Positions 36,736 to 52,680 of a stretch of 58,208 bases of DNA are shown here, piece after piece. A program made the translations under genes and the position numbers. The notes beneath the pieces were generated by a model. That model did no database searches. It was not told the origin of the DNA and saw only the letters and a program-made list of their open reading frames with translations. How positions within the stretch are numbered: position 1 is the stretch's first letter; each line of letters begins with the position of its first letter. Source of the DNA: a virus; the IMG/VR virus record IMGVR_UViG_3300032323_003414, positions 1 through 58,208 of that record, one strand, 5' to 3'.

Positions 36736-37713
36736 ATGGCATATTCACTTGGATCAGTAATACTAGCCGACGATTATAATATTTTCGCGCAAGGCGGGGC
36801 GGCTAGCCCAGACAATAACGTAGCCAATATCAACTCGGTATGGGGGATAGGTAACGGCGACAGGGGATATGGTCAAACAGTTCTACCTATAGTTCCTACA
36901 GTTTCAGCCGGTGCAAACGTGGTTACAGCCACTCAATGGACTACACTGTTAAACCGTATTTCTAGTGCAGCCACACATCAAAGTTCTAGTATTACACCAA
37001 TTACCAGCCCTACAGTTGGCAATACTATTTCAGCTTTTGCGGCTCTGTCTACAAATATCACCACAATCTACAACAACAGATTGAATTGTGTTTCTTCAGG
37101 AACTTCTATTACGTCTGGTGGTAGTGTCGATCGTACTACCGGCTGGGGAACCAGCGTTACATTTACACAAACCATCACATTTGCATCTGGTGACGCCGCA
37201 CGTTATTTCTTCAACGCAGGTGGTAGAGTTACATTGAGCTACAGCCGTTCAGGCGGATCTGTAAATTCACAAAACACTGCAATTACAGATTTGTGTACAG
37301 CAGTTGGCACAATCACTATCACAGGTGGGTCAGGTACTGCTACAATCGCTGGTGGTACATTCACTGGTACTAACAAAACTGGCGGATCAGGATCTCCAAC
37401 TATTGCATCTACTACAGGTTATTACGACCTTACCACGTCTAACGTACAAGTGTTTACACAGAGTGCAAGTTCCTACTATGGTTACGAAGGTAACTCATTG
37501 ACCATTAACGTAAGATCCAATGGAGCACAAGGCTCAAATGCTGACACAGGTTCTGTGATTACAGTTGCAACTACTATTTCTAAACCGGGTGGATTGACCA
37601 CTGTTGATGGCACGCTAAATGCCACAATGACCTTGTTACCTAGCGAAACAACCAATCTAACAACAACCAGCTGGGGAACACCAACTATGTCTGGTAGCCA
37701 AACTGGATCATAA
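36736..37713 (+). CDS. Gly/Ser/Thr-rich tail-fibre-like structural protein
   Basis: A 325-residue protein. Its N-terminal ~95 residues (ILADDYNIFA, NSVWGIGNGDRGYGQ, ITATQW-like VTATQWTTLLNRI) form a pattern found in small virion proteins of aquatic phages. The remainder is beta-rich and dominated by Gly, Ser and Thr (for example GTITITGGSGTATIAGG), as in fibre tips or adhesion proteins. The precise role is unknown. It is the last gene of the structural block and is followed directly by a strong terminator. Confidence 0.6.
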   Translation: MAYSLGSVILADDYNIFAQGGAASPDNNVANINSVWGIGNGDRGYGQTVLPIVPTVSAGANVVTATQWTTLLNRISSAATHQSSSITPITSPTVGNTISAFAALSTNITTIYNNRLNCVSSGTSITSGGSVDRTTGWGTSVTFTQTITFASGDAARYFFNAGGRVTLSYSRSGGSVNSQNTAITDLCTAVGTITITGGSGTATIAGGTFTGTNKTGGSGSPTIASTTGYYDLTTSNVQVFTQSASSYYGYEGNSLTINVRSNGAQGSNADTGSVITVATTISKPGGLTTVDGTLNATMTLLPSETTNLTTTSWGTPTMSGSQTGS

Positions 37714-37779: not shown

Positions 37780-37790
37780 GGAGTATGACC

Positions 37791-38096
37791 ATGGACCCAA
37801 ATCAACTAACACAAGAGATCAAAAATCGTTTTGATCATGCTACCCAAAAAAAACTTCTACGAGAAAAATATCAAAGCAAGCTGACCTTTGCCGCACAGGG
37901 CGGTATGTGGCGAGCAGGACCAGAACTACTTGCTCTATTAAAATCTCAGCCCAAAGAAGAAATTGTCATTGAGGATCTTTACGGCACACCCGTCAAAGTA
38001 AATGCCCTGGCTCTTGAGAATCTAGCCCACAGTTATTGGCAAGAACAAATGAACGCCTGGCTAATTGAACATACAGAACTGTCAAGACAACGATGA
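37791..38096 (+). CDS. Conserved small phage protein of unknown function
   Basis: 101 residues if started at the ATG at 37791, which has GGAG seven bases upstream; the in-frame ATG at 37785 would add two residues but sits against the GGAG. Residues include LREKYQSKLTFAAQGGMW and a C-terminal LAHSYWQEQMNAWL helix. Similar proteins occur in cyanophage-like genomes near structural genes. No catalytic motif is visible. It is the first gene of the operon and overlaps the next start by four bases. Confidence 0.65.
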   Translation: MDPNQLTQEIKNRFDHATQKKLLREKYQSKLTFAAQGGMWRAGPELLALLKSQPKEEIVIEDLYGTPVKVNALALENLAHSYWQEQMNAWLIEHTELSRQR

Positions 38097-38914
38097 GTCG
38101 CGGCGCTGTTCTCTTTGCTTTTAACAACGATAGAGTCGACTATATTAGCCAGGCGCAATGGTCAGCTCCTCGTATAAATCGACACCTTGGCATACCTGTG
38201 ACACTGGTCACAGACACAGCACCTGAAGACACATCAATGTTTGATCAAGTAATCATACGTGAAAGTCGCAGTGGAGGCACTAGAAAATTTGATCATATGA
38301 ATGCAGATTCCTCGGCAACATGGTTCAATCGTGGACGTTGCCGTGCATACGATGTCACACCCTATGATGAAACTTTGGTACTGGACACAGATTATATTGT
38401 GTCCAGCGATAGATTAAAAGTGTTGTTTGACAGCAATCAAGATCTGCTGTGTCATAGGTATGTGCTAGATGTCACTGATCGACGAAACTTTGCTCACGAC
38501 ACACGATTTGGTGAAGTAGAAATGCCCATGTGGTGGGCTACTGTTTTGTTTTTTCGTCGAAGCCGCCTGGCAGAGAGTGTATTTGACATGATGGCCATGA
38601 TTGAAGATAACTGGTATCACTACAGTCGTCTTTATAAATTCAATGAAGAGCCATATCGCAATGATTATGCAATCAGCATAGCCTTGCATACAGTGTATGG
38701 GCATGTGTTGGATGCAGTACCTGACATTCCATGGCCGTTGTTTACCAGCTTTTATGATGTGTACTTAAATCAACTGGCCGATGATTCGTTTCAGTTAAAC
38801 TATGTTCGCATGGTAGACAATCAAGCCCGACATCAGCGCATGATCTTAAAAAATTGTGACTTGCATGTCATGAACAAACCTGACTTGGGAAAAATCTGTG
38901 GCAGTAGAATTTGA
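38093..38914 (+). CDS. GT-A-type putative glycosyltransferase
   Basis: A 273-residue protein. A Rossmann-like N-terminus (GAVLFAFNNDRVDYI, then IPVTLVTD) leads to VLDTDYIV with a DTD metal/nucleotide-sugar motif at 98-100. Conserved-looking WWATVLFFRR and EEPYRNDYAISIAL follow, resembling GT8-like enzymes in which the acceptor loop follows the DxD. The sugar and acceptor are unknown. It is the first of two adjacent GT-A genes. The start ATG overlaps the preceding TGA, and the stop overlaps the next GTG start by 17 bases. Family assignment rests on motif pattern only. Confidence 0.65.
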   Translation: MSRGAVLFAFNNDRVDYISQAQWSAPRINRHLGIPVTLVTDTAPEDTSMFDQVIIRESRSGGTRKFDHMNADSSATWFNRGRCRAYDVTPYDETLVLDTDYIVSSDRLKVLFDSNQDLLCHRYVLDVTDRRNFAHDTRFGEVEMPMWWATVLFFRRSRLAESVFDMMAMIEDNWYHYSRLYKFNEEPYRNDYAISIALHTVYGHVLDAVPDIPWPLFTSFYDVYLNQLADDSFQLNYVRMVDNQARHQRMILKNCDLHVMNKPDLGKICGSRI

Positions 38915-39731
38915 ACGTGGATATTTAATCCTAGCACACAACAACGGGCAAGACGACTACGTGGCTTGTGCTCGAGCACTGGCTAAAAGCCTACGTTGGT
39001 GGATGCCTAATTGTAAAATTTGTTTGGTCACAGATGTCAACGAAACAGATCCTGTGTTTGACATTGTAAAGCCATTTCCCTACGGAGACCAAGATCCCAC
39101 AGGTACTTGGAAGCTGGCCAACGATTGGCAAGCATTTCATGCCTCGCCGTTTCGCGAAACAATCAAACTAGAAGCAGACATGGTCATCACCGGAGATATT
39201 TCTCATTGGTGGTCATGGTTTGAACATCGTGATGTTGTTGTAAGTCAAGGCATGCGTAACTATCTCAATGAGATTAGTGATTGTCGAGCCTATCGTAGAC
39301 TGTTTGACGACAACGAATTACCAGATGTGTACAATGCTATTACCTACTGGAGATTGAGTAGAACAGCTTCTGAATTTTTTCAATTGATCAAACAGTTTTT
39401 TGAAAATTGGTCAGCAGTAAGACAAACATTGAAATACTGCGACTCAATTGCCGCTAACACTGACATGATCTATGCCATCGCAGCCAAGTGCATGGGCGTG
39501 GAACGAGTAACTCTACCCGATGCTTGGCCCAGCATGATTCATATGAAGCCGGCGGTGAACTATCTTAAAACAGATGCTCGCCCTTGGACTGATGAATTTG
39601 TTTGGGAATTGGTCAACGGTCAAGTTAGAATTAACACAGTAGCGCAACAGTGGCCAGTGCATTACCACGAAAAAACATTTGCACATGAATTGGAGAAACA
39701 CTATGGACAGCTTTTGGCAAGCCGTATCTGA
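38898..39731 (+). CDS. GT-A-type putative glycosyltransferase (second copy)
   Basis: 277 residues from a GTG start at 38898. It shares the layout of its neighbour: GYLILAHNNGQDDYV at the N-terminus, CLVTDVNETDP near 42-52, then IKLEADMVITGD with an EAD in place of DxD (92-94). YNAITYWRLS and the SIAANTDMIYAI segment resemble the acceptor side of GT8-like folds. It is probably a diverged paralogue of the previous gene with a different acceptor or donor. It overlaps the genes on both sides, which indicates coupled translation. Confidence 0.6.
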   Translation: MAVEFERGYLILAHNNGQDDYVACARALAKSLRWWMPNCKICLVTDVNETDPVFDIVKPFPYGDQDPTGTWKLANDWQAFHASPFRETIKLEADMVITGDISHWWSWFEHRDVVVSQGMRNYLNEISDCRAYRRLFDDNELPDVYNAITYWRLSRTASEFFQLIKQFFENWSAVRQTLKYCDSIAANTDMIYAIAAKCMGVERVTLPDAWPSMIHMKPAVNYLKTDARPWTDEFVWELVNGQVRINTVAQQWPVHYHEKTFAHELEKHYGQLLASRI

Positions 39732-40053
39732 ACACAACTGGGAACAGCCCGAAGTAAAAATAGAATTTCGTTTGTATTATGACGAGCACGGCAATGTTGT
39801 TTGCTACAGCATGGAAGACTTGCCGGGCAATTACATAGCAATTGATAGAGTTACTTTTGAACAAACTCGATTTGATATAAAAGTCAAAGATGGCAAGATA
39901 ATCAAAGTAAGTAATCCAGCCAGTTGGAAATTGTTTTCCACTGATGCAGAAACAATGCATAGATGTCACCCCGATGACATCTGCATTGTAGTTCCTAAAG
40001 ACTACGCAACACCACACTATTGGGAAGTGAAAACAACACATGACGCAGATTGA
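39703..40053 (+). CDS. Conserved hypothetical protein (116 residues)
   Basis: I start it at the ATG at 39703, which has GGAGA six bases upstream; upstream TTG and ATG codons at 39679 and 39685 lack a site. The protein begins MDSFWQAVSEHNW and has two beta-like segments, IEFRLYYDEHGNVVCYSMEDLPGNYIAI and RFDIKVKDGKIIKV. No signal peptide or membrane segment is seen. I do not recognise a function. It overlaps the genes on both sides in the transferase cluster, so it may be an accessory or acceptor protein there. Confidence 0.6.
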   Translation: MDSFWQAVSEHNWEQPEVKIEFRLYYDEHGNVVCYSMEDLPGNYIAIDRVTFEQTRFDIKVKDGKIIKVSNPASWKLFSTDAETMHRCHPDDICIVVPKDYATPHYWEVKTTHDAD

Positions 40054-40969
40054 CATAGCAGATTTAGATTGCATTTATCTTTCGTACGACGAACCACAGA
40101 AGGAAGAATTCTGGGTACGAATTAAAAACATGGTGCCCTGGGCAAAACGTGTAGACGGAGTCAAAGGGTCAGATGCCGCACACAAAGCAGCCGCAGACGC
40201 CAGCGACACCGAACGGTTCATCTTGATTGACGGTGATAACTTACCACAAGAAAACTTTTTTAATTTAACTCTTGAATACCCAGACGACAATTGGGAAAAA
40301 GCTGTATTCCGTTGGCGAGCACGTAATCATGTCAACGGGCTAATGTACGGCAATGGTGGACTCAGTAGTTGGACTCGTGAATTTGTATGGAATATGAAAA
40401 CCCACGAAGCCACAGATGGCCGAACAGAAACTGAAGTAGAGTTTTGTTTTGATCCCTTGTACTGGCCCATGCATGATTGTTATTCAACTACATACCCCAA
40501 CGGATCTCCTTTTCATGCCTGGAGAGCAGGCTTCCGCGAAGGTGTTAAGATGTGCTTAGATCGTGGACGTAAACCCACTGTCAGTGAATTTAAAGACAGT
40601 GTACATAAACGAAACTTTGATCATCTCTCTATCTGGCACAACGTAGGTTGTGATGTTGAAAATGGGTTCTGGGCTATTGCTGGAGCCCGTCAAGGTACAT
40701 ACATGACCATGCTCAGTGAGTGGGATCATAAAGAAGTACAAAATTTTGACTGCTTAAAAAATATTTGGGAAGCAGTGGCAGCCCCTAGAGAACCTGGCGA
40801 TTTAATCGATCAATACCACGAGCCGTTAAACACACAGCTGGGCTTGCCTATGGCATTTATGCCTCCTTTCCAGAGTGCATTCTTCAAAGATCACTATCGT
40901 AGTAATTGGCATAATCGTGGTGTAATGACCAGAGAGATTGATGTCATTCGGAGTCAAGAAGGATGGTAA
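40040..40969 (+). CDS. Glycosyltransferase-like protein with DGDN motif
   Basis: 309 residues. CIYLSYDEPQKEEFW opens the fold, VPWAKRVDGVKGSDAAHKAAADAS follows, and FILIDGDN (60-67) gives a DxD-like motif. WRARNHVNGLMYGNGGLSSWTR resembles an acceptor-side loop. The same pattern (SDGVNGRAAAYHAAAQAS, NPVNGLEYGHQAM) recurs in the third repeat of the 534-residue protein at 55907, so the two are paralogous over about 130 residues. This family is widespread in aquatic phages, without an assigned reaction. It overlaps the next radical SAM gene by seven bases. Confidence 0.6.
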   Translation: MTQIDIADLDCIYLSYDEPQKEEFWVRIKNMVPWAKRVDGVKGSDAAHKAAADASDTERFILIDGDNLPQENFFNLTLEYPDDNWEKAVFRWRARNHVNGLMYGNGGLSSWTREFVWNMKTHEATDGRTETEVEFCFDPLYWPMHDCYSTTYPNGSPFHAWRAGFREGVKMCLDRGRKPTVSEFKDSVHKRNFDHLSIWHNVGCDVENGFWAIAGARQGTYMTMLSEWDHKEVQNFDCLKNIWEAVAAPREPGDLIDQYHEPLNTQLGLPMAFMPPFQSAFFKDHYRSNWHNRGVMTREIDVIRSQEGW

Positions 40970-42390
40970 ACAACAAAGGCGATGAAATAACATCAGACTT
41001 TAAATCTAAGTTTCTCAGTGATGCCGAAATCATAAAAGAAAAATTAGATTCAGTAAGTCCCAGTCTTTGTTTGGCCAAATGGAAACAGGTCAGTCTGCAC
41101 CTAACCACAGGGCACACAAACTCCTGCTATCATCCACCTCTGCATAAAATTCGTATAGAAGACATTCAACGTTCACCATCGGGTATACACAACACTGAAC
41201 ACAAAAAACAACAACGTCGGTTGATGCTCGAAGGCACACGGCCCAGCGAGTGCAGTTATTGTTGGACCATGGAAGACAATGGCAAACTCAGCGACAGACA
41301 TTACCGTAGTGGTGAGCCCTGGGCCGCACGTGATTTTGAAAAGATTGTTCAAACGCCTTGGAATCAAGATGCTATTCCTAGCTATGTTGAAGTTAACTTT
41401 AACTCGGCATGCAATCTAAAATGCAGTTATTGTAGTCCTCAGTTTAGTTCTAGCTGGATGGATGAAGCCGAGCGTGAGGGTGCATTTCCTACATCAACTC
41501 CGCACAACGATCCTGCATACTTTACAGGCGAGCGCAGGCCTATTCCCAACAGAGAACAGAATCCTTATGTAGATGCTTTCTGGGCCTGGTGGCCTACATT
41601 GTATCCAGAGTTAGAACATTTCCGCATGACTGGTGGCGAGCCAATGATGGATAAAAATACCTACAGAGTGTTTGACTATGTGTTGGCCAATCATAATCCT
41701 CGGTTACACTTAAACGTCACATCAAACTTTAGTGTAGAAGAAAAGTTATGGCAACGTTACAAAGATTATGTCAAACAGTTATGTGAAGGCGAGCGAATTG
41801 AACACTTTATGCAGTATGTCAGTGTAGATGCCTGGGGAGCTCGTTCAGAGTACATTCGCGATGGTTTAAATTTTGATTTACTATGGAAGCGTGTTAATGA
41901 GTTTCTTACAGAAATTCCTGGACGTAGTTCAATAACTTTTATCGTGACCATGAATAACTTGTCAGTGACTAGCTTGCAAGAACTTATGACCGGAATACTC
42001 GAGTTAAGACGAACTCACTCAAAGACGTATCAACGTGTTTGGTTTGACACTCCTGTGTTACGCACTCCTGCCTGGCAAAGCCTACAGTTGTTACCTGAGA
42101 GTTACGCAGATAAGCTACAAGAAACATTGACTTGGATGTCAACTAACCTTGAAACAGAAGCCACAAGATTCAAAGGCTTTAAGGACTACGAGTTAAACAG
42201 ACTGGATAGAGATATTGCCTGGATGAGAAACGGACAACAATTAGATTCTGTGTATGTTGTAAAACAAAAAGCTGATTTCTATCGCTTTTTCAGCGAACAC
42301 GATCGTAGACGCAACACAGATTTTTTAAAAACATTTCCTGAAATGTCTGCCTGGTGGCAAGAATGTGCGTATCATGCCAATAATAGTTGA
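40963..42390 (+). CDS. N-terminal-twitch radical SAM protein (operon copy 1)
   Basis: 475 residues. The auxiliary-type cysteines precede the core: Cys36, Cys55, Cys97 and Cys100. The SAM-cluster motif CNLKCSYC is at 150-157 and TGGEPMMD follows near 223. The set C-x18-C-x41-CxxC matches its neighbour at 43383 but has single cysteines where the other operon copies have a CC pair, so these two form one subgroup. The family (N-terminal-twitch radical SAM) has no established substrate. Its position between a GT-like gene and a TEK-type putative glycosyltransferase suggests work on a glycan or on a carrier peptide. Confidence 0.85.
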   Translation: MVNNKGDEITSDFKSKFLSDAEIIKEKLDSVSPSLCLAKWKQVSLHLTTGHTNSCYHPPLHKIRIEDIQRSPSGIHNTEHKKQQRRLMLEGTRPSECSYCWTMEDNGKLSDRHYRSGEPWAARDFEKIVQTPWNQDAIPSYVEVNFNSACNLKCSYCSPQFSSSWMDEAEREGAFPTSTPHNDPAYFTGERRPIPNREQNPYVDAFWAWWPTLYPELEHFRMTGGEPMMDKNTYRVFDYVLANHNPRLHLNVTSNFSVEEKLWQRYKDYVKQLCEGERIEHFMQYVSVDAWGARSEYIRDGLNFDLLWKRVNEFLTEIPGRSSITFIVTMNNLSVTSLQELMTGILELRRTHSKTYQRVWFDTPVLRTPAWQSLQLLPESYADKLQETLTWMSTNLETEATRFKGFKDYELNRLDRDIAWMRNGQQLDSVYVVKQKADFYRFFSEHDRRRNTDFLKTFPEMSAWWQECAYHANNS

Positions 42391-43390
42391 GCCTGGCCTA
42401 GCACTCAATTATTTAAAACAAGACCCAGATATTCAAATTGACCGTCTAGGCAACTGTCAATCAACTCATTATATTATCAGTCTAGCTACATTTACTCAGC
42501 AGTGGCCGCAAGTACTAGACCTACTAACTCAAGGCAGTATTATTGCTGTTGAAAAAACTGATGAAAGTGTTGTGACACAATGGCATATAGTCAAACATCA
42601 AGATTACAATCCCTGGATTAAATCTGGGCAGTTGAGATTTATCACAGGAGGTGCCGCTCCTGTTGAGGTAAGGAATTTAAACAGCGAGCATTTTTTGGCA
42701 GCAACCATTGGCAGTCAGGCCTATGGTATGCCACTCTTGGACTACAAACATTGTCGTAAACCTTACAATTTTTTGTTTACCAATCGCAAGGTACGCCCAC
42801 ATCGCAGATATCTTATTCACCGTTTAGAACAAGAAGGGCTGTTCAAAAATGCACTATGGTGCAATCACGAAGGACACAGTACCTGGGGGCATCCAGAATT
42901 TAATATCAACTATACCAATGAAAACATTCCAGTGCAGTCTTTACCGCCAGGGTACGACCCAGATCAACTGCCAGACTGGGTAGATGGTATTGTGGTAAAA
43001 GAACAATATCTTGACACATGGTTTAGTTTGGTGTCTGAAACAGTGTTTGAATCTCCGGCTAGTTTTAGAACTGAAAAATTCTATAAACCCATAATAGCAG
43101 GACATCCATTTGTGGTCTGTGCCAACACAGGTTTCTATCAAGATTTACACAATCTTGGGTTTCGATCATTTAATCACTTGATTGATGAATCATTTGATGT
43201 TACAATAAATGGTAAAGACCGTATTGATCGCCTAGTAGACACTGTAAAATGGTTGTGCCAACAAGACTTAGCAGAATTTTGGCAAGCCGCTAGAGAAGTA
43301 TGTTTATACAACCAGCACCGAGCTTTAGAACTACATAATAGCCAGCACCAATATTTTACGCAACAATTGAAAGATTTCATGCATGCCTAG
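42374..43390 (+). CDS. 'TEK' family putative glycosyltransferase (copy 1)
   Basis: 338 residues from the ATG at 42374; a GTG at 42365 is possible. The C-terminal third holds SETVFESPASFRTEKFYKPIIAGHPFVVCANTGFY, then LGFRSFNHLIDESFD. The same TEK-(x)2-KPI...PF...G...GF-T/S-F...DESYD signature occurs in three other proteins here. It resembles the donor-binding end of GT-B enzymes such as the FucT (GT10) group, where a TEK-like motif precedes an aromatic-hydrophobic run. A glycosyltransferase is therefore likely but unproven. It lies between two radical SAM genes and overlaps both. Confidence 0.55.
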   Translation: MPIIVEPGLALNYLKQDPDIQIDRLGNCQSTHYIISLATFTQQWPQVLDLLTQGSIIAVEKTDESVVTQWHIVKHQDYNPWIKSGQLRFITGGAAPVEVRNLNSEHFLAATIGSQAYGMPLLDYKHCRKPYNFLFTNRKVRPHRRYLIHRLEQEGLFKNALWCNHEGHSTWGHPEFNINYTNENIPVQSLPPGYDPDQLPDWVDGIVVKEQYLDTWFSLVSETVFESPASFRTEKFYKPIIAGHPFVVCANTGFYQDLHNLGFRSFNHLIDESFDVTINGKDRIDRLVDTVKWLCQQDLAEFWQAAREVCLYNQHRALELHNSQHQYFTQQLKDFMHA

Positions 43391-44735
43391 ATTAAACAAC
43401 GAAACAGATCTTGAATACAAACGCAGAGTAATTGACATCAAGTCAGAGTCATTCTGCGGAGCCAAGTGGTACAACGCTACTATATGGTTGGGATCTGGTA
43501 TGACCACAAGTTGTCATCATCCGTTGCCGCATAAAGTTGAAATAGCAGATGTTGAGGCCAACCCTAAAGCATTGCATAACACTCCTAAAAAGAAACAGGA
43601 ACGTGAGCAAATGCAACAAGGAGAACGCCCACGTGGATGCGAATATTGTTGGAAAATTGAAGACATAGGTCGCGACAATGTGTCAGACCGTGTGTACAAA
43701 ACTGTGCTGTATTCAGATGAGGATTTAGATCATGCATTCAATTTACCCGCAGGCCAAGATGTGGATTTACAAACACTGGAAATTGCTTTTGACCGTACTT
43801 GCCAATTCGCTTGTTCTTATTGCAATCCGGCATTCTCAAGCACATGGGTGCGTGATATCAAACAACACGGAGCATATCAAGGACTTGTAAGTGACGGACG
43901 TAATCATTTTACTCACCCACACGACTCTGCACAGCTTTATACAATCAATGATGTGAATCCCTATGTGGAAGCGTTCTTTGCCTGGTGGGAGTCAGACCTA
44001 CACCGTACTCTCAAAGAACTACGCATCACAGGTGGTGAACCGTTGATGTCAGGCTACACCTGGAAGTTGTTAGATTGGTTCAAAGACAATCGTGGTAAAA
44101 GTTCCACACGCTTGGCAATCAATTCAAATCTTGGAATGTCAACAGAAGATGTTGTTAAGCTATTAGATCGGGCTGATGGTATTGCATTGGACTTGTATAC
44201 TTCAAACGAAAGCATGTCTGGTCATGCAGAATACATCCGAGATGGCCTGGATTGGAAGCAATGGATCGCCAACATGCATATGCTGGCTAATAGCGGTCGC
44301 CTGCGAGGACTGCATGTGATGTGTACTATCAACGCACTGTGCCTTGAATCATTGCCAGAGTTTTTGGATCACATGTTAGAATTCAAACAACAATATGGCA
44401 GAGACTTTCCAACTTTTACATTGAATATCTTACGCTTTCCAAGTTTTCAATCACCATTGGTATTGCCCGACGACCTACGTCAAGAACGTGGCAATAGATT
44501 GCAAAAGTGGTATGATGCTAACAAAGATAGCTCACTGTTACATCAGATGGAAATCAATCAAGTTCAAAGATTGATAGACTATCTTGACGTTGTTAAAACG
44601 CCTCACTCAGACACATTTGATCGTGCAAGTCTACACAATGATTTTAAACGGTTTCACGAACAGTATGATCAACGTCGTGGAAAAGACTTTACAAAAACAT
44701 TTCCTGCCTTGGCAGATTGGTACAACACATTATGA
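43383..44735 (+). CDS. N-terminal-twitch radical SAM protein (operon copy 2)
   Basis: 450 residues, the closest paralogue of the 475-residue protein at 40963. Auxiliary cysteines are Cys25, Cys44, Cys86 and Cys89. The SAM-cluster motif is CQFACSYC at 140-147, and ITGGEPLMSG follows near 220. Both copies share an HxPLxHK segment (HPLPHKVEI here, HPPLHKIRI there), an HNT-KKQ stretch before the CxxC pair, and a YIRDGL segment later. The similarity and the single intervening gene suggest duplication followed by specialisation. The start overlaps the preceding gene by eight bases. Confidence 0.85.
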   Translation: MPRLNNETDLEYKRRVIDIKSESFCGAKWYNATIWLGSGMTTSCHHPLPHKVEIADVEANPKALHNTPKKKQEREQMQQGERPRGCEYCWKIEDIGRDNVSDRVYKTVLYSDEDLDHAFNLPAGQDVDLQTLEIAFDRTCQFACSYCNPAFSSTWVRDIKQHGAYQGLVSDGRNHFTHPHDSAQLYTINDVNPYVEAFFAWWESDLHRTLKELRITGGEPLMSGYTWKLLDWFKDNRGKSSTRLAINSNLGMSTEDVVKLLDRADGIALDLYTSNESMSGHAEYIRDGLDWKQWIANMHMLANSGRLRGLHVMCTINALCLESLPEFLDHMLEFKQQYGRDFPTFTLNILRFPSFQSPLVLPDDLRQERGNRLQKWYDANKDSSLLHQMEINQVQRLIDYLDVVKTPHSDTFDRASLHNDFKRFHEQYDQRRGKDFTKTFPALADWYNTL

Positions 44736-46057
44736 CTAGTCCAGAAAGAAAATTAAGCAATTACAATTGGAACGAGCGCAAGCCAGTGTATATCGATGTG
44801 GAAGAATTATCAGATATTCAACAACACCGACTCATGGAAAGTCGACATTTTTGTATGATTCCTTGGATACACATGCATGGCTACCCTGACGGTCGTGCAT
44901 ATCCTTGCTGTCTCGGAGAAGAAACACATCCAGTAGGGGATCTTAAACAACATACAATCAAAGAAATCTGGAACCAAGAAGACTATCGAGAGATGCGACG
45001 AAACATGCTGGCAGACAAACCTAGTCGTCAGTGTGTGCGTTGCTATGAGCAAGAAGATGCTGGATTTGCCAGCATGCGCAATAACTCCAATCGACACTTT
45101 GGCCACCATATCAAAGACGTTGACATTACCTTGCCTGACGGCACACATCCTGAATTTGAAATACGTTACTGGGATGTAAGATTCAGTAACATTTGCAATC
45201 TCAAATGTCGTAGTTGTGGAAGTATATTCTCTAGTCGATGGTATGATGATGATGTTAAATTGCACGGCAAACCATTCCGTCCTCGTGTGCAGTATGCTGG
45301 CAAAACAGAACTGGACATTTGGGAACAGATGCAAGAGCACATTCCGCACTTAGAACAAATTTACTTTGCTGGTGGCGAACCTTTGATTATGGAAGAGCAC
45401 AATCGCATTTTAAAAATGTTAATCGAAACAGGTAATACTGGAGTTCGTCTAATATACAACACCAATCTAACTGAGCTTAAATTTAAAAAAGAAAGTGTAC
45501 TTGATCTATGGAAGCAGTTCCCACAAGTGTGTGTTGCGGCCAGCCTTGATGACATGGGAGAACGTGCTGGAATTATACGCTCAGGCACAGTGTGGGAAGA
45601 AGTAGAACAAAACATACGAGATCTAAAACGAGAATGTCCACACATTGATTTTATGATTAGTCCTACTCTTAGTGTGTTAAACATTTGGAACTTTTGTGAA
45701 TTCCATCGATACATGGTTGATCAAGGATTTATTCGTCCGTGCGATATGAATTTAAACATACTGCAAGGCCCTCGCGAATATCGCATTGATATCTTGCCAC
45801 AAGACATCAAGCTAGAACTCAAAGCCAAATTTGAACGTCATTTAGAATGGCTACGACCGCTTGATCACTTGAATCGTGCCACTGGCGGATTTGAAGCAGC
45901 CATACAGTTTATGATGGCACAAGATTGCACTGATATGTTGGCGAAATTTTGGAAAATTACCACAGACTTGGACTGGAGTCGTAACGAAAGTATTTTACAA
46001 GTTGTTCCTGAACTCAAACAAATATCAAAATATAAACCCGAAGGATTAAGAGAATGA
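44732..46057 (+). CDS. N-terminal-twitch radical SAM protein (operon copy 3)
   Basis: 441 residues from the ATG in an ATGA overlap; an upstream TTG at 44717 is less likely. Residues FCMIPW (Cys41), PCC (Cys59/60) and CVRC (101-104) precede the SAM-cluster motif CNLKCRSC at 155-162. AGGEPLIMEEH follows. The pattern C-x17-CC-x40-CxxC is the CC-pair subgroup shared with copies 4 and 5 and with the protein between gp47 and gp46. A leading ~35 residues (KPVYIDVEELSD) are extra. The strand after the core (VCVAASLDDMGE) differs from the usual FSIDG, so the active-site pocket probably differs too. Confidence 0.85.
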   Translation: MTSPERKLSNYNWNERKPVYIDVEELSDIQQHRLMESRHFCMIPWIHMHGYPDGRAYPCCLGEETHPVGDLKQHTIKEIWNQEDYREMRRNMLADKPSRQCVRCYEQEDAGFASMRNNSNRHFGHHIKDVDITLPDGTHPEFEIRYWDVRFSNICNLKCRSCGSIFSSRWYDDDVKLHGKPFRPRVQYAGKTELDIWEQMQEHIPHLEQIYFAGGEPLIMEEHNRILKMLIETGNTGVRLIYNTNLTELKFKKESVLDLWKQFPQVCVAASLDDMGERAGIIRSGTVWEEVEQNIRDLKRECPHIDFMISPTLSVLNIWNFCEFHRYMVDQGFIRPCDMNLNILQGPREYRIDILPQDIKLELKAKFERHLEWLRPLDHLNRATGGFEAAIQFMMAQDCTDMLAKFWKITTDLDWSRNESILQVVPELKQISKYKPEGLRE

Positions 46058-47274
46058 ATATTCCACACGACTCATTTTGTGTGCTACCTTGGCTGAGTCT
46101 TGAGGCCAGTCCTATTGGCACTGTGCGTCCTTGCTGTCTAGCACTAGATGAAATTAAAGACAATGACGGCAACAAGTTCAAATTACAGCAAAGTACTTTC
46201 ATTGAAATACAAAACAGCGATCACATGAAAAAACTTCGCAACGAATTTTTAGATGGTAAAAAACCACAGACATGTAAACGTTGCTGGGATGAAGAAAGAT
46301 CTGGACGTACCAGCAAACGTATGCACACACTAGACAGACTCAAAGGAATGGTTGATCACAATATTTCTTGGAGTGCTGATGCTAAACCTTTGCTGTTTTT
46401 AGATCTCAAGCTGGGAAATATTTGCAATCTCAAATGTCGCATTTGCGGTTCCTGGTCATCCAGTACCTATGCCGCTGAAGATTTGAATTTCTTTACTACC
46501 CCCGAGCTAAAGAAAAGTAGTTTTAGTTATCAAATGCTACGAGATGGAGCTTGGCCCAGAGAGAATAGTCAATTTTGGACAGAACTAGAGAATACACTAA
46601 CAGACATACGTTACATAGAGTTTACCGGCGGCGAGCCTTTTATGATTCAAGAGCACTTTGATTTGTTGAAACGCCTGGTAGAAAAAGGCCTGGCTGGACA
46701 AATTGAAATACACTACAACACCAATGGTACACAATGGCCCGAAGGCGCTGAAGAAATTTGGCAGCACTTCAAAAATGTAGAAATAGCATTTAGCATTGAT
46801 GATGTAGGAGAAAGATTTGAATACCAACGATCAAATGCTATCTGGACAGAAGTACAAAACAACATTGCTAGATTTATTGCATTACGACACAAGCTATCAA
46901 ATATTAGATTACAAATATGTTGTACTGTGAATGTGTTTAATGTGTATTATCTTAATGACGTAGCTCGTTGGATCTACGACTTGACATTTGATTTTGTATA
47001 TTGGAATGTGCTACACGACCAATTCTACTTCAGCATTGGTACATTGCCGGCAACAGCCAAAGAAGCCATTGAACGTCATTTAAGATCACAGACATGGCCA
47101 GAAAAATGTCGTTCAGAAATTGATGGCATCATTGATTTCATGAACAAAGGCACCAGCCTGGATGGAAATTTATTAAGAATGCATGCCAAAGAATTAGACT
47201 TTAAACGAAATCAAAGTCTATCAACAGTGTCACCAGAGTTTGCCGCATTGATTGGATATGAGGTTAATGAATAA
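46054..47274 (+). CDS. N-terminal-twitch radical SAM protein (operon copy 4)
   Basis: 406 residues, the smallest of the five. FCVLPW (Cys9), PCC (Cys27/28) and CKRC (74-77) lead to CNICNLKC-type residues, with the SAM-cluster cysteines at 124, 128 and 131. TGGEPFMIQEH and AFSIDDVGERFEYQRS follow. It joins copy 3 by an ATGA overlap and resembles it strongly (the GERxxxxRS and WxEVxxNI stretches are shared), so the pair look like a tandem duplication. The substrate is unknown. The overlap suggests equal amounts of both proteins and perhaps a complex. Confidence 0.85.
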   Translation: MNIPHDSFCVLPWLSLEASPIGTVRPCCLALDEIKDNDGNKFKLQQSTFIEIQNSDHMKKLRNEFLDGKKPQTCKRCWDEERSGRTSKRMHTLDRLKGMVDHNISWSADAKPLLFLDLKLGNICNLKCRICGSWSSSTYAAEDLNFFTTPELKKSSFSYQMLRDGAWPRENSQFWTELENTLTDIRYIEFTGGEPFMIQEHFDLLKRLVEKGLAGQIEIHYNTNGTQWPEGAEEIWQHFKNVEIAFSIDDVGERFEYQRSNAIWTEVQNNIARFIALRHKLSNIRLQICCTVNVFNVYYLNDVARWIYDLTFDFVYWNVLHDQFYFSIGTLPATAKEAIERHLRSQTWPEKCRSEIDGIIDFMNKGTSLDGNLLRMHAKELDFKRNQSLSTVSPEFAALIGYEVNE

Positions 47275-48175
47275 AATAACCCTTGTGATGCTACCGGAGT
47301 ACGTGAGTGCATTCGCTATGAAGCACCTACGTTCAGTATTTTCTCAATGGTTTGAATTTACCAACTATGAATCAGGAAAAGCCTACGGTCGTGAGTGTGT
47401 GTTTATTACGCATCACGATAAAGATCAAGTTCTAGCCGATCATCTTTGGCAACAGGGTTGCAAAGTGGCAGTAGAAGAGCTATGGGAATATCCTAGAACA
47501 CACCCTCGTTATTATACTATCAATTGTTCCAAATGGTTTTGGTTTAACGAAGCATTTTGGTACATGTCTTTGGGCTACGATCGTTATTACCCAACAAGAA
47601 AATTTTCCAAATTGGCGTTGATGCCAATGGGCAGGCGCCGTCCGTTTAGAGATCAGATTGTTGAACAGTTGGGTCCTATGTTGGATTTATTTGTATGGAG
47701 TTACTACGATCGCATGTTGCCCAATGATCTACCACTGGAACAAAGAGAGCCCGGCGACAAAATGGCCTGGACACGACATTTCAATCCAGACTGGTACGAC
47801 AACACTAGTTTTAGTTTAGTGGTAGAGACTCAAGTCACTGGCGTAGACTTTGTCACAGAAAAAACCTGGAAGCCCATTGCATACATGCACCCATTTTTGA
47901 TTCTTGGCCCAAATGGCACATTAAAAAATCTACGATCCTGGGGGTTCGAGACCTATGATAACTTGTTTGACGAAAGCTATGATTTGGTAGACTTTGACAA
48001 AGGCAAACTAGACATCATCATTGACAATGTTAAAAATTTTCAACCTTCCACCTACGACGATGAAACAAGAGATAGAGTGGCTTTTAATAAAAATAGATTT
48101 TTTAGCACACACATTATTAAAACGCAAATAAAGAAAGACATCGTAGATCCGTTGCAGGAGTTTATCAATGAGTAA
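47267..48175 (+). CDS. 'TEK' family putative glycosyltransferase (copy 2)
   Basis: 302 residues from the ATG at 47267, which has GAGG just upstream; TTG 47252 and ATG 47258 are alternatives. The N-terminal half has a Rossmann-like start (ITLVMLPEYVSAF). The C-terminal part reads FSLVVETQVTGVDFVTEKTWKPIAYMHPFLILG, then LRSWGFETYDNLFDESYD, the TEK signature. It is much closer to the two minus-strand copies at 53663 and 54859 than to copy 1 in this motif. It overlaps the radical SAM genes on both sides. Donor and acceptor are unknown. Confidence 0.6.
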   Translation: MNKITLVMLPEYVSAFAMKHLRSVFSQWFEFTNYESGKAYGRECVFITHHDKDQVLADHLWQQGCKVAVEELWEYPRTHPRYYTINCSKWFWFNEAFWYMSLGYDRYYPTRKFSKLALMPMGRRRPFRDQIVEQLGPMLDLFVWSYYDRMLPNDLPLEQREPGDKMAWTRHFNPDWYDNTSFSLVVETQVTGVDFVTEKTWKPIAYMHPFLILGPNGTLKNLRSWGFETYDNLFDESYDLVDFDKGKLDIIIDNVKNFQPSTYDDETRDRVAFNKNRFFSTHIIKTQIKKDIVDPLQEFINE

Positions 48176-49469
48176 ACCCGATACATTATGCATGGCACCG
48201 TGGACTCACACCTACCTGAGCCCGCAAACAGAACGTCGGTTGTGCTGTGCATCAAGAGAACCTGCACAAAATTTTGAACAGTATATTGACACTGCTGCCG
48301 GCACTGGAAAATATATTCCGATCACACTAGAAGATCATTGGAACAGTGAACACATGAAGTCGGTGCGTCGACGCATGATGGCAGGAGAAACTTTGCCAGA
48401 ATGTGCAGTGTGCAACGAAAAGTTATTAAATACTGACGTCTATCGCAGTTATTTTTGGGGATTGTTTGGTCACAAGTATGATCAAGTCATGCAAGAAACC
48501 ACACCAGACGGCGTCACTACAATGAAACCTGTGAGTTGGGACTATAGATTTTCCAACTTGTGTAATTTTAAATGTCGTATGTGTGGCGACATGCTTTCAA
48601 GTTCGTGGGAAAGCGAACAACGCAAGCATGACATGGTTGACTGGACTAATCCCAAAAACAACTGGATGCGTCCTGAAGTCAAACGTGAAATCACAAAGTT
48701 TCAAGACACACAGATAGAAGCAGAGTTTGCCCAAGCAGTTGAAGAACACCGTGTTGAAGAGATTTATTGGGTAGGCGGAGAACCGCTGATGTACGAACAG
48801 CATTGGCGTTATATGAAAAGAATTATTGAACTAGGTGACGGACCAAAACTTTATGCAAGATACAATACCAACCTTAGCCGCGTGGATTATAATGGGATTA
48901 GTCTTTATCGTGATTTGTTATCAAATATACGTGACTTCCAAATCTGTGCAAGCATCGACGGAACAGGACAAATCGGAGAATACATCAGAACCGGTCTGGC
49001 CTGGCCCGTATTTTTAGAAAATTTCAAACGTGGTTTAGAGATAGCACGTCATCGTAGACAAATGCGACTGGACTTTACGTTGACTCTGCCCGGCTTGTTT
49101 GAAGTAGAAAACATGCAACGCATTGCCAATGAACTAGGAGTTGATATCTTGGCCAAAGTAGTATTTGCGTTTACTCCAGACATTGTAATGAGCCCGTTAG
49201 CACTGCCCAGAGAGCTATTGAATCGCACTGTTGATCGTTTGATTCCTACCACACATGGTGCTTTAACAGATGTGCTACTACAACTTAAGAATCGCCCTAA
49301 CTTTGAAGAACAATGGCCAGATCAATATCAGGCAGGCCTTGCAAAAGGCAAGACACGTGTGTTAAAATTAGAACAGATAAGGAATGATTCGTTCACTATG
49401 AACGACATATTAAAACAAGATGCAGACATATATGCCTGGTGGCAAGACATTAGACCAAGTAACAATTGA
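48168..49469 (+). CDS. N-terminal-twitch radical SAM protein (operon copy 5)
   Basis: 433 residues. LCMAPW (Cys8), LCC (Cys26/27) and CAVC (79-82) precede the SAM-cluster motif CNFKCRMC at 132-139. VGGEPLMYEQHW follows, then CASIDGTGQIGEYIRTG. The spacing between CC and CxxC is about ten residues longer than in copies 3 and 4. It belongs to the CC-pair subgroup. It overlaps the preceding TEK gene by eight bases and the following unknown gene by about 50, the longest overlap in the operon. Confidence 0.85.
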   Translation: MSKPDTLCMAPWTHTYLSPQTERRLCCASREPAQNFEQYIDTAAGTGKYIPITLEDHWNSEHMKSVRRRMMAGETLPECAVCNEKLLNTDVYRSYFWGLFGHKYDQVMQETTPDGVTTMKPVSWDYRFSNLCNFKCRMCGDMLSSSWESEQRKHDMVDWTNPKNNWMRPEVKREITKFQDTQIEAEFAQAVEEHRVEEIYWVGGEPLMYEQHWRYMKRIIELGDGPKLYARYNTNLSRVDYNGISLYRDLLSNIRDFQICASIDGTGQIGEYIRTGLAWPVFLENFKRGLEIARHRRQMRLDFTLTLPGLFEVENMQRIANELGVDILAKVVFAFTPDIVMSPLALPRELLNRTVDRLIPTTHGALTDVLLQLKNRPNFEEQWPDQYQAGLAKGKTRVLKLEQIRNDSFTMNDILKQDADIYAWWQDIRPSNN

Positions 49470-50520
49470 GCTTAAGAACAGAGAAACACAAGAACTGTTT
49501 CCTGTGCGTGTCAATGTGTTCGACAACTCACTGAGTCGTAAATGGCTCACAGCTCTCAATGAACTGTTACAACAAAACTATCATTTAGAAAAAAACTATT
49601 GTTTCTTTGGCTTTGTTGATCATAAAAGAAACGGTTGGCACATACTCAATGAAGTAAATCGTAGCATTGACGCTATTAACCGCGCTGAGCTTGGATACCA
49701 TATCGACGATTACTTTGATATGAACAACACTATCACAGACGATCCCATAGATGGTCGCGCAGTGGGTCGCAATGTACGTCAGGAAAAGCTCAACTGGTTA
49801 CACAGATACTTTGAAGATTTGCAAGGTGTCAGCGGAGCTCCTAAAGAATATTATCTGCGAGCAGACTCTGCCACACGTTGGCATATACGTCAGCTTAACT
49901 TGTTGTGTCACGAATTTGAATCCTGGGCACTGAGTTATCGTAAACAAATAGAAGCACCTGAATGGCAACGTCCTAGTCAATTGATGTGTTGGCTAAATGC
50001 TCCACGCTTTGTGTTAGATGAGGCTGACTATGAACTGTTTGGTATAGAAACAATCAATAGACCTCTGGGTGGAGTGTTTGTTGGAGTAAACAAAGCAGTA
50101 GGAAAACATCATTGGGAAGTATTTCAGGACGAGGGCAGAGACAGTAGAGTTGGCGAGTTAGTATCAACCACCCTACGCAGTCAAACTGAAGCCGCTGGTG
50201 ACTTTGATATAGAGTGGGCCAATAACCCAGGCAACTATGAATGGCAAAAGATACGATTGAAAGAATTTCGTGAATGGCTTGCGGTGAATGGGTTTAATCC
50301 TGACGATCCTGCACTGACCATCGGCCATCCACAAATTGGACAAGTCGACCTAATAGATACATTCTGGACAAATGATTATCAAGCTATTTGGAAACGCCTA
50401 AATACACATCTTGATGTGTACAGTGTGCGTACCACGGATGCTCGCGCAGTCTACGACTATTGCTGGAGCGATCCAGACCATGCACAACGTCAGATCAATA
50501 TTATAGGAAGCAACAAATGA
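49420..50520 (+). CDS. Unknown protein in the radical SAM operon (366 residues)
   Basis: I do not recognise this protein. It begins ~50 bases inside the preceding radical SAM gene; ATG codons at 49420 and 49432 are both possible and neither has a clear ribosome site. Visible blocks are VRVNVFDNSLSRKWLTAL, HRYFEDLQG, CHEFESWALSYRKQ, LNAPRFVLDEADYELFG and NRPLGGVFVGVNKAVGKHHWEVFQ. There is no signal peptide, transmembrane segment or known catalytic motif. It is Trp- and His-rich. Its fixed place between the last radical SAM gene and the carbamoyltransferase makes it a candidate partner, acceptor or new enzyme in the pathway. Confidence 0.7.
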   Translation: MQTYMPGGKTLDQVTIELKNRETQELFPVRVNVFDNSLSRKWLTALNELLQQNYHLEKNYCFFGFVDHKRNGWHILNEVNRSIDAINRAELGYHIDDYFDMNNTITDDPIDGRAVGRNVRQEKLNWLHRYFEDLQGVSGAPKEYYLRADSATRWHIRQLNLLCHEFESWALSYRKQIEAPEWQRPSQLMCWLNAPRFVLDEADYELFGIETINRPLGGVFVGVNKAVGKHHWEVFQDEGRDSRVGELVSTTLRSQTEAAGDFDIEWANNPGNYEWQKIRLKEFREWLAVNGFNPDDPALTIGHPQIGQVDLIDTFWTNDYQAIWKRLNTHLDVYSVRTTDARAVYDYCWSDPDHAQRQINIIGSNK

Positions 50521-50618
50521 AATGGTTACGCAACTTGATCAATAGGATCAAACTTGAAATACGTTATCGTAAAAAATTAAAAGAACTTCGCAAACGAGAT
50601 CCTTTCATCTACAAATGA
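50517..50618 (+). CDS. 33-residue basic peptide
   Basis: A short gene joined by ATGA overlaps to the gene before and to the carbamoyltransferase after it, which strongly supports translation. The peptide is MKWLRNLINRIKLEIRYRKK followed by LKELRKRDPFIYK: about 40% Lys/Arg, an amphipathic helix and a DPFIYK tail. Small proteins of this style (a basic helix ending in DPFIY-K/E) are, to my recollection, widespread in cyanophage-like genomes. It lacks cysteine, serine and threonine, which weighs against most thioether or glycosylated peptide products; the two tyrosines and the lysines could still be modified. The function is unknown. Confidence 0.7.
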   Translation: MKWLRNLINRIKLEIRYRKKLKELRKRDPFIYK

Positions 50619-52099
50619 AACACATACTTGGTATCAGTGCAGGGTTCCACGATGCGGCAGCCACAGTCATCAACTCAGATGGTGAAATAGTTTTTGCCGG
50701 CCACTCAGAACGCTACAGCAAAGTCAAGAATGATTCTAACTTATGTGATGCACTGTTGTCTGAATTGTGCAAGTGGCAGTACAATACTGTGGCCTGGTAC
50801 GAACGGCCTTGGCTACATAATTTACGGCAGTTATATTCTGGACAACAGATCACAGAGCCCTGGACTACACGTGGCGCACTTCGCAAGCACCTAGGTGCAT
50901 GGTATCAACACCCTGCAAAAAATGAAGTCAGCTACCCACATCATCTAAGTCATGCTGCCGCAGGATTTCAAACAAGTCCGTACACCAAGGCCACAGTGAT
51001 TGTAATTGATGCCATTGGTGAATGGGACACTATCAGTATTTGGGGTGCGCATTATGTTGATGGCAAGGCCAAGTATCATCGGCTATGGGGACAACGATAC
51101 CCACACAGCATTGGATTATTTTATACAGCAATCACGCAACGTGTTGGCCTACGTCCACTAGACGAAGAATACATTACCATGGGCATGGCTGCCTACGGTG
51201 AACGTGGATTCAGTGAGCTACTTAAACACGATTTTGTCGACAATGATTGGGACATGACATTTAAACAAAATCTACATGCTGGTGTAGATCCTAAATATTT
51301 AGACTATATCAGCAACTATGACTTGGCCGCAGGCGCACAAGATCTAGTTGAAACCTTGATATATAATGTAATGCAACGTGCCAGAGACTTTGGCTGGTCA
51401 CGCAATTTGGTTTACATGGGCGGTGTTGCTTTAAATTGTTTGGCAAATAGAAACCTAGGAAATTATTTTGATAACATTTGGATTATGCCTAATCCTGGCG
51501 ATGCTGGCAGTAGTCTGGGCAGTGCGGCGCTGGCTTACGGAAAACAGATACATTGGAAAAACGCCTTTCTTGGTCATGACATTCCTGGTGCTTATCCTGT
51601 CGATAATATTATCGACGAGCTTTTGGTCAATAAAATTGTTGGTGTGGCCAGTGGTCGTGCAGAGTTTGGCCCCAGAGCCTTGGGAAACAGAAGTCTGCTT
51701 GCAGACCCCCGCGGCCCAGAAATAAAAGATCGTGTAAATGAAATCAAACGTCGCCAACAATTTAGACCGTTCGCTCCAGTAATACTAGAAGAGTGTGTCA
51801 ACGATTATTTTGACATGCCTCAAAACTACACAAGCAGTCCGTACATGCAGGTAGTAGCACATTGCCGTCATCCTGACCAGTTTCCAGCAATTATACATGT
51901 AGATGGTACTAGCCGTGTACAAACTGTGAGCAAAGATTGTGGATCGGGCATTAGACAACTGCTAGAGAGGTGGTATGTGGAAACAGGATGTCCCATGTTG
52001 CTTAACACCAGTTTAAACATACGTGGTGAACCCATGGTCAACGATCGAGCAGATGCCGATCGCTTTGAACAACTGTATGGAGTAAAGGTCTGTAGTTAA
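50615..52099 (+). CDS. Carbamoyltransferase (NodU/CmcH family)
   Basis: 494 residues with the two family domains. The N-terminal Kae1-like domain starts ILGISAGFHDAAATVI and holds the metal-binding HHLSHAA motif at 109-115. A YMGGVALNCLANR segment follows near 268. The C-terminal YrdC-like-positioned domain carries EFGPRALGNRSLLADPR (about 350-366), KRRQQFRPFAP and NTSLNIRGEPMV near 465. These enzymes transfer a carbamoyl group from carbamoyl phosphate, through carbamoyl-AMP, to hydroxyls of sugars or antibiotics. At ~494 residues it is slightly shorter than NodU. Its placement after five radical SAM genes and before a GT25 gene implies an O-carbamoylated glycan or metabolite. Confidence 0.9.
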   Translation: MKHILGISAGFHDAAATVINSDGEIVFAGHSERYSKVKNDSNLCDALLSELCKWQYNTVAWYERPWLHNLRQLYSGQQITEPWTTRGALRKHLGAWYQHPAKNEVSYPHHLSHAAAGFQTSPYTKATVIVIDAIGEWDTISIWGAHYVDGKAKYHRLWGQRYPHSIGLFYTAITQRVGLRPLDEEYITMGMAAYGERGFSELLKHDFVDNDWDMTFKQNLHAGVDPKYLDYISNYDLAAGAQDLVETLIYNVMQRARDFGWSRNLVYMGGVALNCLANRNLGNYFDNIWIMPNPGDAGSSLGSAALAYGKQIHWKNAFLGHDIPGAYPVDNIIDELLVNKIVGVASGRAEFGPRALGNRSLLADPRGPEIKDRVNEIKRRQQFRPFAPVILEECVNDYFDMPQNYTSSPYMQVVAHCRHPDQFPAIIHVDGTSRVQTVSKDCGSGIRQLLERWYVETGCPMLLNTSLNIRGEPMVNDRADADRFEQLYGVKVCS

Positions 52100-52680
52100 T
52101 GAATCAACCTCATTGCTATGTAATTGCACACCCAACATCACGAGTTGTCAATGATTGCATAGCAAGTCTTAAAAAACATGGATGGGCATTTGAAGTCTTT
52201 CCAGCAGTAAATGGTCATACAGTCACAGAACAAACTTGGAAGTCCGTTGGGGTACAAATGTCAAGTAACGGAAAAATGCCACGTAGACCAGGAGCACAAG
52301 GTTGTTGGATAAGTCACTGGCGTTTGTGGAATCGCTGTGTAGACACTGACCGACCCATAGTTATCTTGGAACATGATGCCGTAGTAACAGCACCTTGGCC
52401 CACTGATCTAGATATTGAATCAACTCTAGTAAAACTTTATACAACTGCAGAATGCAAAGTTAATCCAGCATTTGGTCTTTGGAGTAAAGGGTCGTATGCT
52501 TATACATTAACACCTGCACAAGCGCAACGTTTGATTGACTATGCTCGCACCAACGGTGCGCAAGCAGTAGACAAACATCTAGGAGAGCAAGTGTTGCCTT
52601 GGAGATTTCATTCCAAAGATTTGATTGTGCTCAACCCGCATAGAGGTAAAAGCACAACTTCATCAAAGATAAGTTTCTAA
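52099..52680 (+). CDS. GT25-type glycosyltransferase
   Basis: 193 residues. PRRPGAQGCWISHWRLWNRC (62-80) and IVILEHDAVV (87-96) match the GT25 (Lex1/LPS galactosyltransferase) pattern, in which GC..SH precedes an E-x-D motif. Here the motif is EHD at 91-93. The WSKGSYAYTLTPAQAQRLID segment near 133 also fits the family. The acceptor is unknown. The start overlaps the carbamoyltransferase stop by one base. The 3' end overlaps the converging amidinotransferase gene by 18 bases, so the plus operon ends here. Confidence 0.8.
   Translation: MNQPHCYVIAHPTSRVVNDCIASLKKHGWAFEVFPAVNGHTVTEQTWKSVGVQMSSNGKMPRRPGAQGCWISHWRLWNRCVDTDRPIVILEHDAVVTAPWPTDLDIESTLVKLYTTAECKVNPAFGLWSKGSYAYTLTPAQAQRLIDYARTNGAQAVDKHLGEQVLPWRFHSKDLIVLNPHRGKSTTSSKISF

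Follow-up and report, generated by a model that had tools for sequence, protein, structure and literature searches.

Gene organization of the cassette

The window analysed here is the whole of a virus record of 58,208 nt (IMG/VR record IMGVR_UViG_3300032323_003414), of the linear class and probably a fragment. Directly after its tail fibre-like genes it encoded five radical S-adenosylmethionine (SAM) enzymes of the N-terminal-twitch (N-twitch) type, designated rSAM-1 to rSAM-5, together with putative and predicted glycosyltransferases (GTs), a cyclophilin-like protein and a carbamoyltransferase. A near-invariant set of five oxygen-sensitive radical SAM enzymes and glycosyltransferases, directly after the tail fibre genes, was found throughout a family of giant phages related to the window. 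The tail neighbours and the genes of the cassette were as follows, with bit scores referring to family NF033640.

34515-35117, + strand: tail-module protein, lineage marker and fixed upstream neighbour (phrog_11259; 74-94% identical to relatives; homologue of Atu_ph07 gp177)
35168-36595, + strand: tail fibre-like virion protein, candidate acceptor (phrog virion structural/tail fibre matches; homologue of Atu_ph07 gp176)
36736-37713, + strand: Ser/Thr-rich (32%) fibre-like protein, candidate acceptor, located between tail genes and cassette in relatives
37785-38096, + strand: small conserved protein, the first gene overlapping the GT genes (-4 overlap with the 38093 gene)
38093-38914, + strand: putative GT-A glycosyltransferase 1 (LDTD motif; related to the 38898 gene)
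38898-39731, + strand: putative GT-A glycosyltransferase 2 (LEAD motif; phrog_1903, unknown function)
39679-40053, + strand: small protein conserved in relatives
40040-40969, + strand: putative GT2-like protein (conserved DGD)
40963-42390, + strand: rSAM-1, single-Cys type (323 bits)
42365-43390, + strand: TEK1, predicted GT-B-fold glycosyltransferase (AF2 model)
43383-44735, + strand: rSAM-2, single-Cys type (304 bits)
44717 (TTG) or 44732 (ATG)-46057, + strand: rSAM-3, CC-pair type (400 bits)
46054-47274, + strand: rSAM-4, CC-pair type (334 bits)
47252-48175, + strand: TEK2, of the same family as TEK1 by sequence similarity
48168-49469, + strand: rSAM-5, CC-pair type (293 bits)
49420-50520, + strand: conserved protein with a predicted cyclophilin-like barrel and helical insert (AF2 pLDDT 85.9)
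50615-52099, + strand: NodU-type carbamoyltransferase (Pfam Carbam_trans_C 5e-52, Carbam_trans_N 9e-35; phrog_1601)
52099-52680, + strand: GT25 glycosyltransferase (Pfam 3e-11)

A preliminary description, made from the DNA letters alone, had placed five radical SAM genes here and named the carbamoyltransferase and the GT25 gene; open reading frames (ORFs) were present at all these positions, and the latter two had the Pfam matches listed above. The start-stop overlaps that it reported were real in the window and were kept in the relatives.

Radical SAM enzymes

NF033640 is the NCBIfam family of twitch domain-containing radical SAM proteins (N_Twi_rSAM), with a curated cut-off of 170 bits, and rSAM-1 to rSAM-5 all matched it over the full length above this value (293-400 bits). 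Auxiliary cysteines were located upstream of the core CxxxCxxC, within the N-terminal domain, and the division into single-Cys and CC-pair subgroups drawn in the preliminary description was recovered: in rSAM-1 and rSAM-2 the first auxiliary Cys was followed by a single Cys and CxxC, in rSAM-3, rSAM-4 and rSAM-5 by a CC pair and CxxC. The cluster cysteines of the five groups were 100% conserved (96-126 homologues per group), those of rSAM-1 (Cys 36, 55, 97 and 100 as well as 150/154/157) being invariant in 126 homologues. Non-cluster cysteines nearly invariant within each group (0.99-1.00) were also observed, namely C307 of rSAM-3, C289 of rSAM-4 and C260 of rSAM-5; extra cysteines of this kind can act as hydrogen donors in radical SAM epimerases. 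At loci L055, L056, L060, L085 and L112 (about 9450-11430), rSAM-1 possessed an added N-terminal domain of ~165 aa (MIIAFYPGAGGNRYY...).

When the rSAM-3/4 profile was compared with PDB sequences, the best match was BtrN, an aminoglycoside radical SAM enzyme that dehydrogenates an aminocyclitol, with a weak E value of 0.0011 and an alignment that covered the auxiliary-cluster domain; this domain is C-terminal in BtrN, whereas it is N-terminal in the window enzymes. No partner common across groups was found beside the single-copy cellular NF033640 genes of Hoeflea, Synechococcus, Paenibacillus and Flavobacteriales.

Five radical SAM genes had been listed by the preliminary description, and the cassette does hold five, but the list lacked two others, located near the opposite end of the window:

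4854-6374, - strand: sixth N-twitch radical SAM gene, located apart from the cassette (256 bits, above the cut-off across the full model)
2084-3097, - strand: seventh radical SAM, not N-twitch (detected when radical SAM proteins in general were searched for; no match to a specific family exceeded its cut-off)

The sixth gene was flanked, within nt 3094-7387 (- strand), by two genes resembling, by eye, those for gp46/gp47-type recombination nuclease subunits. The protein of nt 2084-3097 had Cys near its C-terminus, and similar genes were located beside N-twitch arrays in Bdellovibrionota.

Conservation of the cassette among related phages

The baseplate wedge protein of the window shared 32-34% identity with those of Atu_ph07, Phosso, RaK2-like and related jumbo phages, and no DNA nearly identical to the window was found in the phage collection searched. 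Relatives were collected from viral contigs by an rSAM-1 search (457 matching stretches, 80 loci kept), an rSAM-3 search (44 loci) and a search anchored on the tail gene at nt 34515, which is independent of the radical SAM genes (53 loci whose downstream sequence was 9 kb or longer). Most of these sequences were metagenomic contigs and some were near-identical, so the independent lineages are fewer than the loci counted.

The order recurring in the 80 rSAM-1 loci was tail gene, two fibre-like genes, a small gene, two GT-A-like genes, a small gene and the GT2-like gene, followed by rSAM-1, TEK1, rSAM-2, rSAM-3, rSAM-4, (TEK2), rSAM-5, the cyclophilin-like gene and the carbamoyltransferase gene. 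The cassette was directly downstream of the tail genes in all 80, and the GT-A-like, small, GT2-like and rSAM-1 genes were present in every one; counts for genes farther away were lower, largely owing to contig ends or the 10-kb flank limit. With the tail gene as anchor, rSAM-1 was located downstream in 52 of 53 loci, and the remaining locus ended about there. The genes were thus linked in these genomes, not scattered among them as would have told against the preliminary description.

Varied degrees of identity to the window proteins were observed, with medians of 71%, 65%, 50%, 65% and 72% for rSAM-1 to rSAM-5, respectively, 73% for the GT2-like protein, 80% for the tail gene, 34% for TEK1/TEK2 and 38% for the Ser/Thr-rich fibre protein. 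Across relatives, rSAM-1, rSAM-2 and rSAM-5 were 61-94% identical, and most radical SAM genes were as conserved as the tail genes. Substitutions were overwhelmingly synonymous, with nonsynonymous rates (dN) of 0.04-0.43 and synonymous rates (dS) of about 0.4-2.8 or saturated; the cassette is under purifying selection.

NF033640 matches numbered 11-17 in each of eight relatives represented by records of 317-354 kb, and 12 radical SAM genes have been published for a T4-like marine environmental genome, TARA_ERS488813_N000010 (PMC5332604). The statement in the preliminary description that phages seldom carry even one such enzyme is wrong for this group. In Salicola phage SCTP-2, a relative by baseplate, no radical SAM gene was annotated in the downstream stretch of a genome whose annotation is almost empty. 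A single ORF of 4871 aa (nt 19727-34342, + strand) was located between the baseplate wedge and tail genes of the window, a position corresponding to that of Atu_ph07 gp180 (~4450 aa).

Phylogeny, bacterial arrays and gene fusions

A quickly built tree of 126 sequences, in which branches were long, placed rSAM-1 to rSAM-5 in five separate clades of phage sequences. Each of the five was joined by at least one member of a tandem array from a Bacteriovoracaceae chromosome (L146; support 87-100). By eye, the flanks of this array were cellular in appearance, with an Obg-like and an Lgt-like protein, and genes for a carbamoyltransferase, a GT2 and an NTP-transferase (nucleotidyltransferase) were located within ~15 kb of it. 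By this grouping, the five enzymes represent five old orthologue groups, so that the two cysteine subgroups of the preliminary description are not a recent duplication, and phages and Bdellovibrionota have exchanged the set, in one direction or the other. As the bacterial array carries the set without tail genes, the set does not depend on them.

In each of nine Bdellovibrionota genomes, 8-33 NF033640 matches were obtained at E 0.001, of which only a part exceeded the cut-off. The genome with 33 was a Bdellovibrionia metagenome-assembled genome (G026, locus L205, C1:738000-775500), in which many were located in one array that also held beta-hydroxylase-like, 2-oxoglutarate-oxygenase-like and amidinotransferase-like genes.

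Three fusions were observed: phage contig L044 joined TEK to an N-twitch radical SAM, Halobacteriovoraceae locus L152 an N-twitch radical SAM to a GT2-like stretch, and Bacteriovoracaceae locus L150 a carbamoyltransferase to SPASM and radical SAM domains. The GT2-like stretch of L152 resembled, by eye, genes adjoining radical SAM genes in L144 and L145; a Pfam GT2 match, a weak one, was obtained for the L144 gene only.

Transferases and the cyclophilin-like protein

TEK1 to TEK4 were mutually similar in sequence. The AF2 model of TEK1 (pLDDT 86.5), searched in VIA, matched GT-B enzymes at Z 12.7-11 with 254-286 residues aligned; the top match had Z 12.7 over 264 residues, and the best 50 of the 338 chains at Z ≥8 were GT-B enzymes. 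TEK1 is thus predicted to have a GT-B glycosyltransferase fold, as befits the transferase role given to the TEK proteins in the preliminary description, which a different predicted structure would have contradicted; such a fold does not fix donor or acceptor. The GT10 fucosyltransferase 2nzw (Z 12.5) and T4 beta-glucosyltransferase 1nzd (Z 12.1) were tied with others. An assignment of TEK1 as a GT10 fucosyltransferase was rejected, as the likeness is one of fold only and no Pfam family was matched by TEK1 or TEK2 at E 1. Against PDB sequences, the TEK profile gave one weak unrelated match only.

For the two proteins starting at nt 38093 and 38898, labelled GT-A-like, a DxD-like motif was present, but a significant match to a GT-A family was not obtained: 20 members of their family had no Pfam GT match, the profile matched mostly glycogenin among PDB sequences with a best E of 0.09, which is not significant, and hhalign comparison with a GT8 gave no support. 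Their labels are plausible but weak. Of 18 members of the 40040 family, four matched Pfam Glyco_tranf_2_3 (best E 0.0013), the window member not being among them, and hhalign comparison of this family with a chromosomal GT2 gave no support.

The model of the 49420 protein is predicted to carry a cyclophilin-like barrel with a helical insert: in VIA, the top 29 rows were cyclophilins or cyclophilin-like proteins (Z 7.0-8.8), the next unrelated row being at 4.2. No match was found in Pfam, PDB sequences or Foldseek PDB, BFVD returned uncharacterised phage proteins only, and hhalign against a human CypA sequence gave a probability of 0.2%. Identification as a true cyclophilin was not supported: the barrel matches, but sequence homology to cyclophilins, including their catalytic residues, was not found.

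Genes flanking the cassette

Beyond the region covered by the preliminary description, which ended with the GT25 gene, the following genes were located:

52663-53709, - strand: putative amidinotransferase-like enzyme (by eye only; homologue in the Bdellovibrionia radical SAM array)
53663-54868, - strand: TEK3, similar to the other TEKs
54859-55908, - strand: TEK4, similar to the other TEKs
55907-57511, + strand: protein related to the 40040 gene by sequence similarity
57483-58208, - strand: DegT/DnrJ sugar aminotransferase, truncated where the record stops (Pfam 9e-39; PseC-like, below cut-off)

The protein of nt 52663-53709 had no significant match in Pfam or NCBIfam. In all 13 long relatives searched, a DegT/DnrJ sugar aminotransferase gene followed the cassette at a distance of 8-17 kb (distances derived by hand from listed coordinates, one spanning the record ends). 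At the other end of the window, nt 616-1641 (- strand) encoded a protein with SGNH-like motifs by eye; SGNH-like-looking domains, without Pfam match, were also fused to rSAM-3 (L127, 13748-15658) and to the cyclophilin-like protein (L037, 16184-17815).

Comparison with known systems

Phages rich in radical SAM genes, and islands combining tail fibre, GT and radical SAM genes, have already been published. The host-recognition cluster of pelagimyophages, to which its authors assign a role in O-chain modification, resembles the window in that genes for tail fibres and GTs occur together with radical SAM cassettes in the structural region (PMC7029224). However, that island is variable and non-syntenic (PMC7029224), whereas the cassette order and radical SAM sequences of the window group are strongly conserved; hypervariable content without synteny was not what the 80 rSAM-1 loci and 52 of 53 tail loci displayed. 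The baseplate of the window, in comparison with the pelagimyophage cluster, is of the RaK2/Atu_ph07 type. Genome TARA_ERS488813_N000010 likewise has many radical SAM genes in one phage, but the available part of its description treats them as Fe-S users and mentions neither a gene module nor linkage to GTs (PMC5332604).

In Vibrio phages K566 and K567, which are isolates, N-twitch radical SAM genes alternate with GT8 and GT4-like genes as they do with transferase genes in the window, those of the cultured K566 adjoining two GT8 genes and GT4-like genes. They differ in having distant radical SAM proteins (~24% identity), other GT families and no orthologous set; K566 represents the same radical SAM-GT partnership with different GTs. 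Atu_ph07 and Phosso also possess several radical SAM genes in the slot behind a giant structural protein and tail-fibre homologues, but with C-terminal-SPASM enzymes, different partners and a candidate Cys-His peptide tail. The stretches concerned (L294, NC_042013.1, Atu_ph07, 16909-23647; L295, PV764938.1, Phosso, 7272-15015) encode the C-terminal-SPASM radical SAM enzymes, a cupin/JmjC protein and a ~300-aa protein that ends in ...CHSSCHASCHNSRSRR and ...CHTSCHASCHSSRSRR, respectively, and is a candidate radical SAM-modified virion-linked protein.

NF033640 is a family without assigned reaction, and the window group combines five fixed groups of orthologues into a single set. The enzyme family and the general partnership with GTs were known; what is new is that five such enzymes form a fixed and almost obligatory module, which is linked to tail genes and which a group of bacteria shares. 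No description of such a module was found among open-licence papers.

Proposed function of the cassette

The reading tentatively preferred is that the cassette is a sugar-building and tailoring module that makes a decorated glycan, whose acceptor would most likely be the tail-fibre proteins of the phage itself. As to the chemistry of each enzyme, the order of the steps and the acceptor, we infer that activated amino- or deoxy-sugars would be supplied by the downstream sugar aminotransferase and host metabolism, and that chains would be assembled by the GT-A-like, GT2-like, TEK and GT25 proteins. Each of the five N-twitch enzymes, with SAM and two predicted [4Fe-4S] clusters, would abstract hydrogen from a sugar carbon, leading to dehydrogenation, epimerisation or dehydration as in BtrN-/NeoN-type chemistry. 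Capping by the carbamoyltransferase, and perhaps by the amidinotransferase-like protein, may follow, the product being placed on the fibres encoded directly upstream.

A glycan is favoured by the fusions and the conserved sugar aminotransferase. The preliminary description had proposed a phage-encoded line that builds or remodels a complex glycan or modifies a glycopeptide or virion protein; this is partly supported, in that its glycan part agrees with these observations, the linked conserved set and the predicted GT-B fold of TEK, while several successive radical steps on one substrate, the substrate itself and virion placement stay at the level of proposal. Tail fibres are the likely destination because the cassette constantly accompanies the tail genes and its radical SAM enzymes are conserved, while variation would be the expectation for a target on the host surface; conservation equal to that of the tail genes, unlike that of hypervariable host-recognition islands, suits a fixed, phage-owned substrate.

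Several points weigh against this proposal. The bacterial arrays show that the set needs no virion acceptor; the evidence comes mostly from metagenomic contigs, some near-identical; and the transferase labels of the 38093, 38898 and 40040 proteins are weak. The sugar chemistry rests on association, as no NF033640 enzyme with a known reaction was found, and the similarity to BtrN is marginal. Furthermore, the cyclophilin-like protein could indicate a peptide substrate, and linkage to tail genes could reflect late-gene co-expression alone.

The principal alternative, possible but not likely, is that the cassette builds or remodels a surface glycan of the host in the course of infection, so that, for instance, competing phages could no longer adsorb or phages would not bind again to debris. 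It would accord with the O-chain interpretation of the pelagimyophage island (PMC7029224) and with the Bdellovibrionota chromosome, where the set is located near GT2, nucleotidyltransferase and carbamoyltransferase genes without tail genes. However, O-chains of hosts change fast, yet rSAM-1, rSAM-2 and rSAM-5 keep the identities given above and the cassette occurs in nearly every tail locus tested; nor was a glycan export gene recognised among the larger ORFs of the window.

Less probable still is peptide chemistry of the kind known from ribosomal-peptide maturation, in which amino-acid side chains in a virion protein would be altered by the radical SAM enzymes and the GTs would glycosylate at or near those residues. 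SPASM/twitch radical SAM enzymes often have peptide substrates, the cyclophilin-like protein could present a peptide, and the Atu_ph07/Phosso slot pairs C-terminal-SPASM radical SAM enzymes with a cupin/JmjC protein and a protein ending in CHxSCHxSCHxSRSRR. The Atu_ph07 enzymes are not N-twitch, however; no comparable conserved C-terminal motif was present in the window proteins inspected (upstream small and tail proteins), and the N-twitch enzymes are fused to transferases, not to peptide-recognition domains. Decoration of modified bases of the phage genome by the GTs and the carbamoyltransferase is very improbable, for although the TEK fold is also near T4 beta-glucosyltransferase, in a tie with many GT-B enzymes, thymidylate-synthase-family genes were present in only 2 of 14 records, a TET/JBP search, run without positive control, had no match, and the linkage is to tail genes.

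Implications

A bolder form of the tail-fibre proposal, which is rather doubtful, is that the cassette forms an obligatory five-radical-SAM assembly line shared with Bdellovibrionota, performing new radical sugar chemistry and placing on the tail a glycan needed for infection or host range. For NF033640, the fixed set, the fusions to GTs and carbamoyltransferase and the conservation in hundreds of phage contigs provide a testable context in sugar chemistry, for which the cultured phage K566 and the Bacteriovoracaceae relatives are laboratory entry points. A product located on the tail would mean that these phages possess a system for virion glycosylation of unusual complexity; one on the host would mean a conserved system for surface remodelling.

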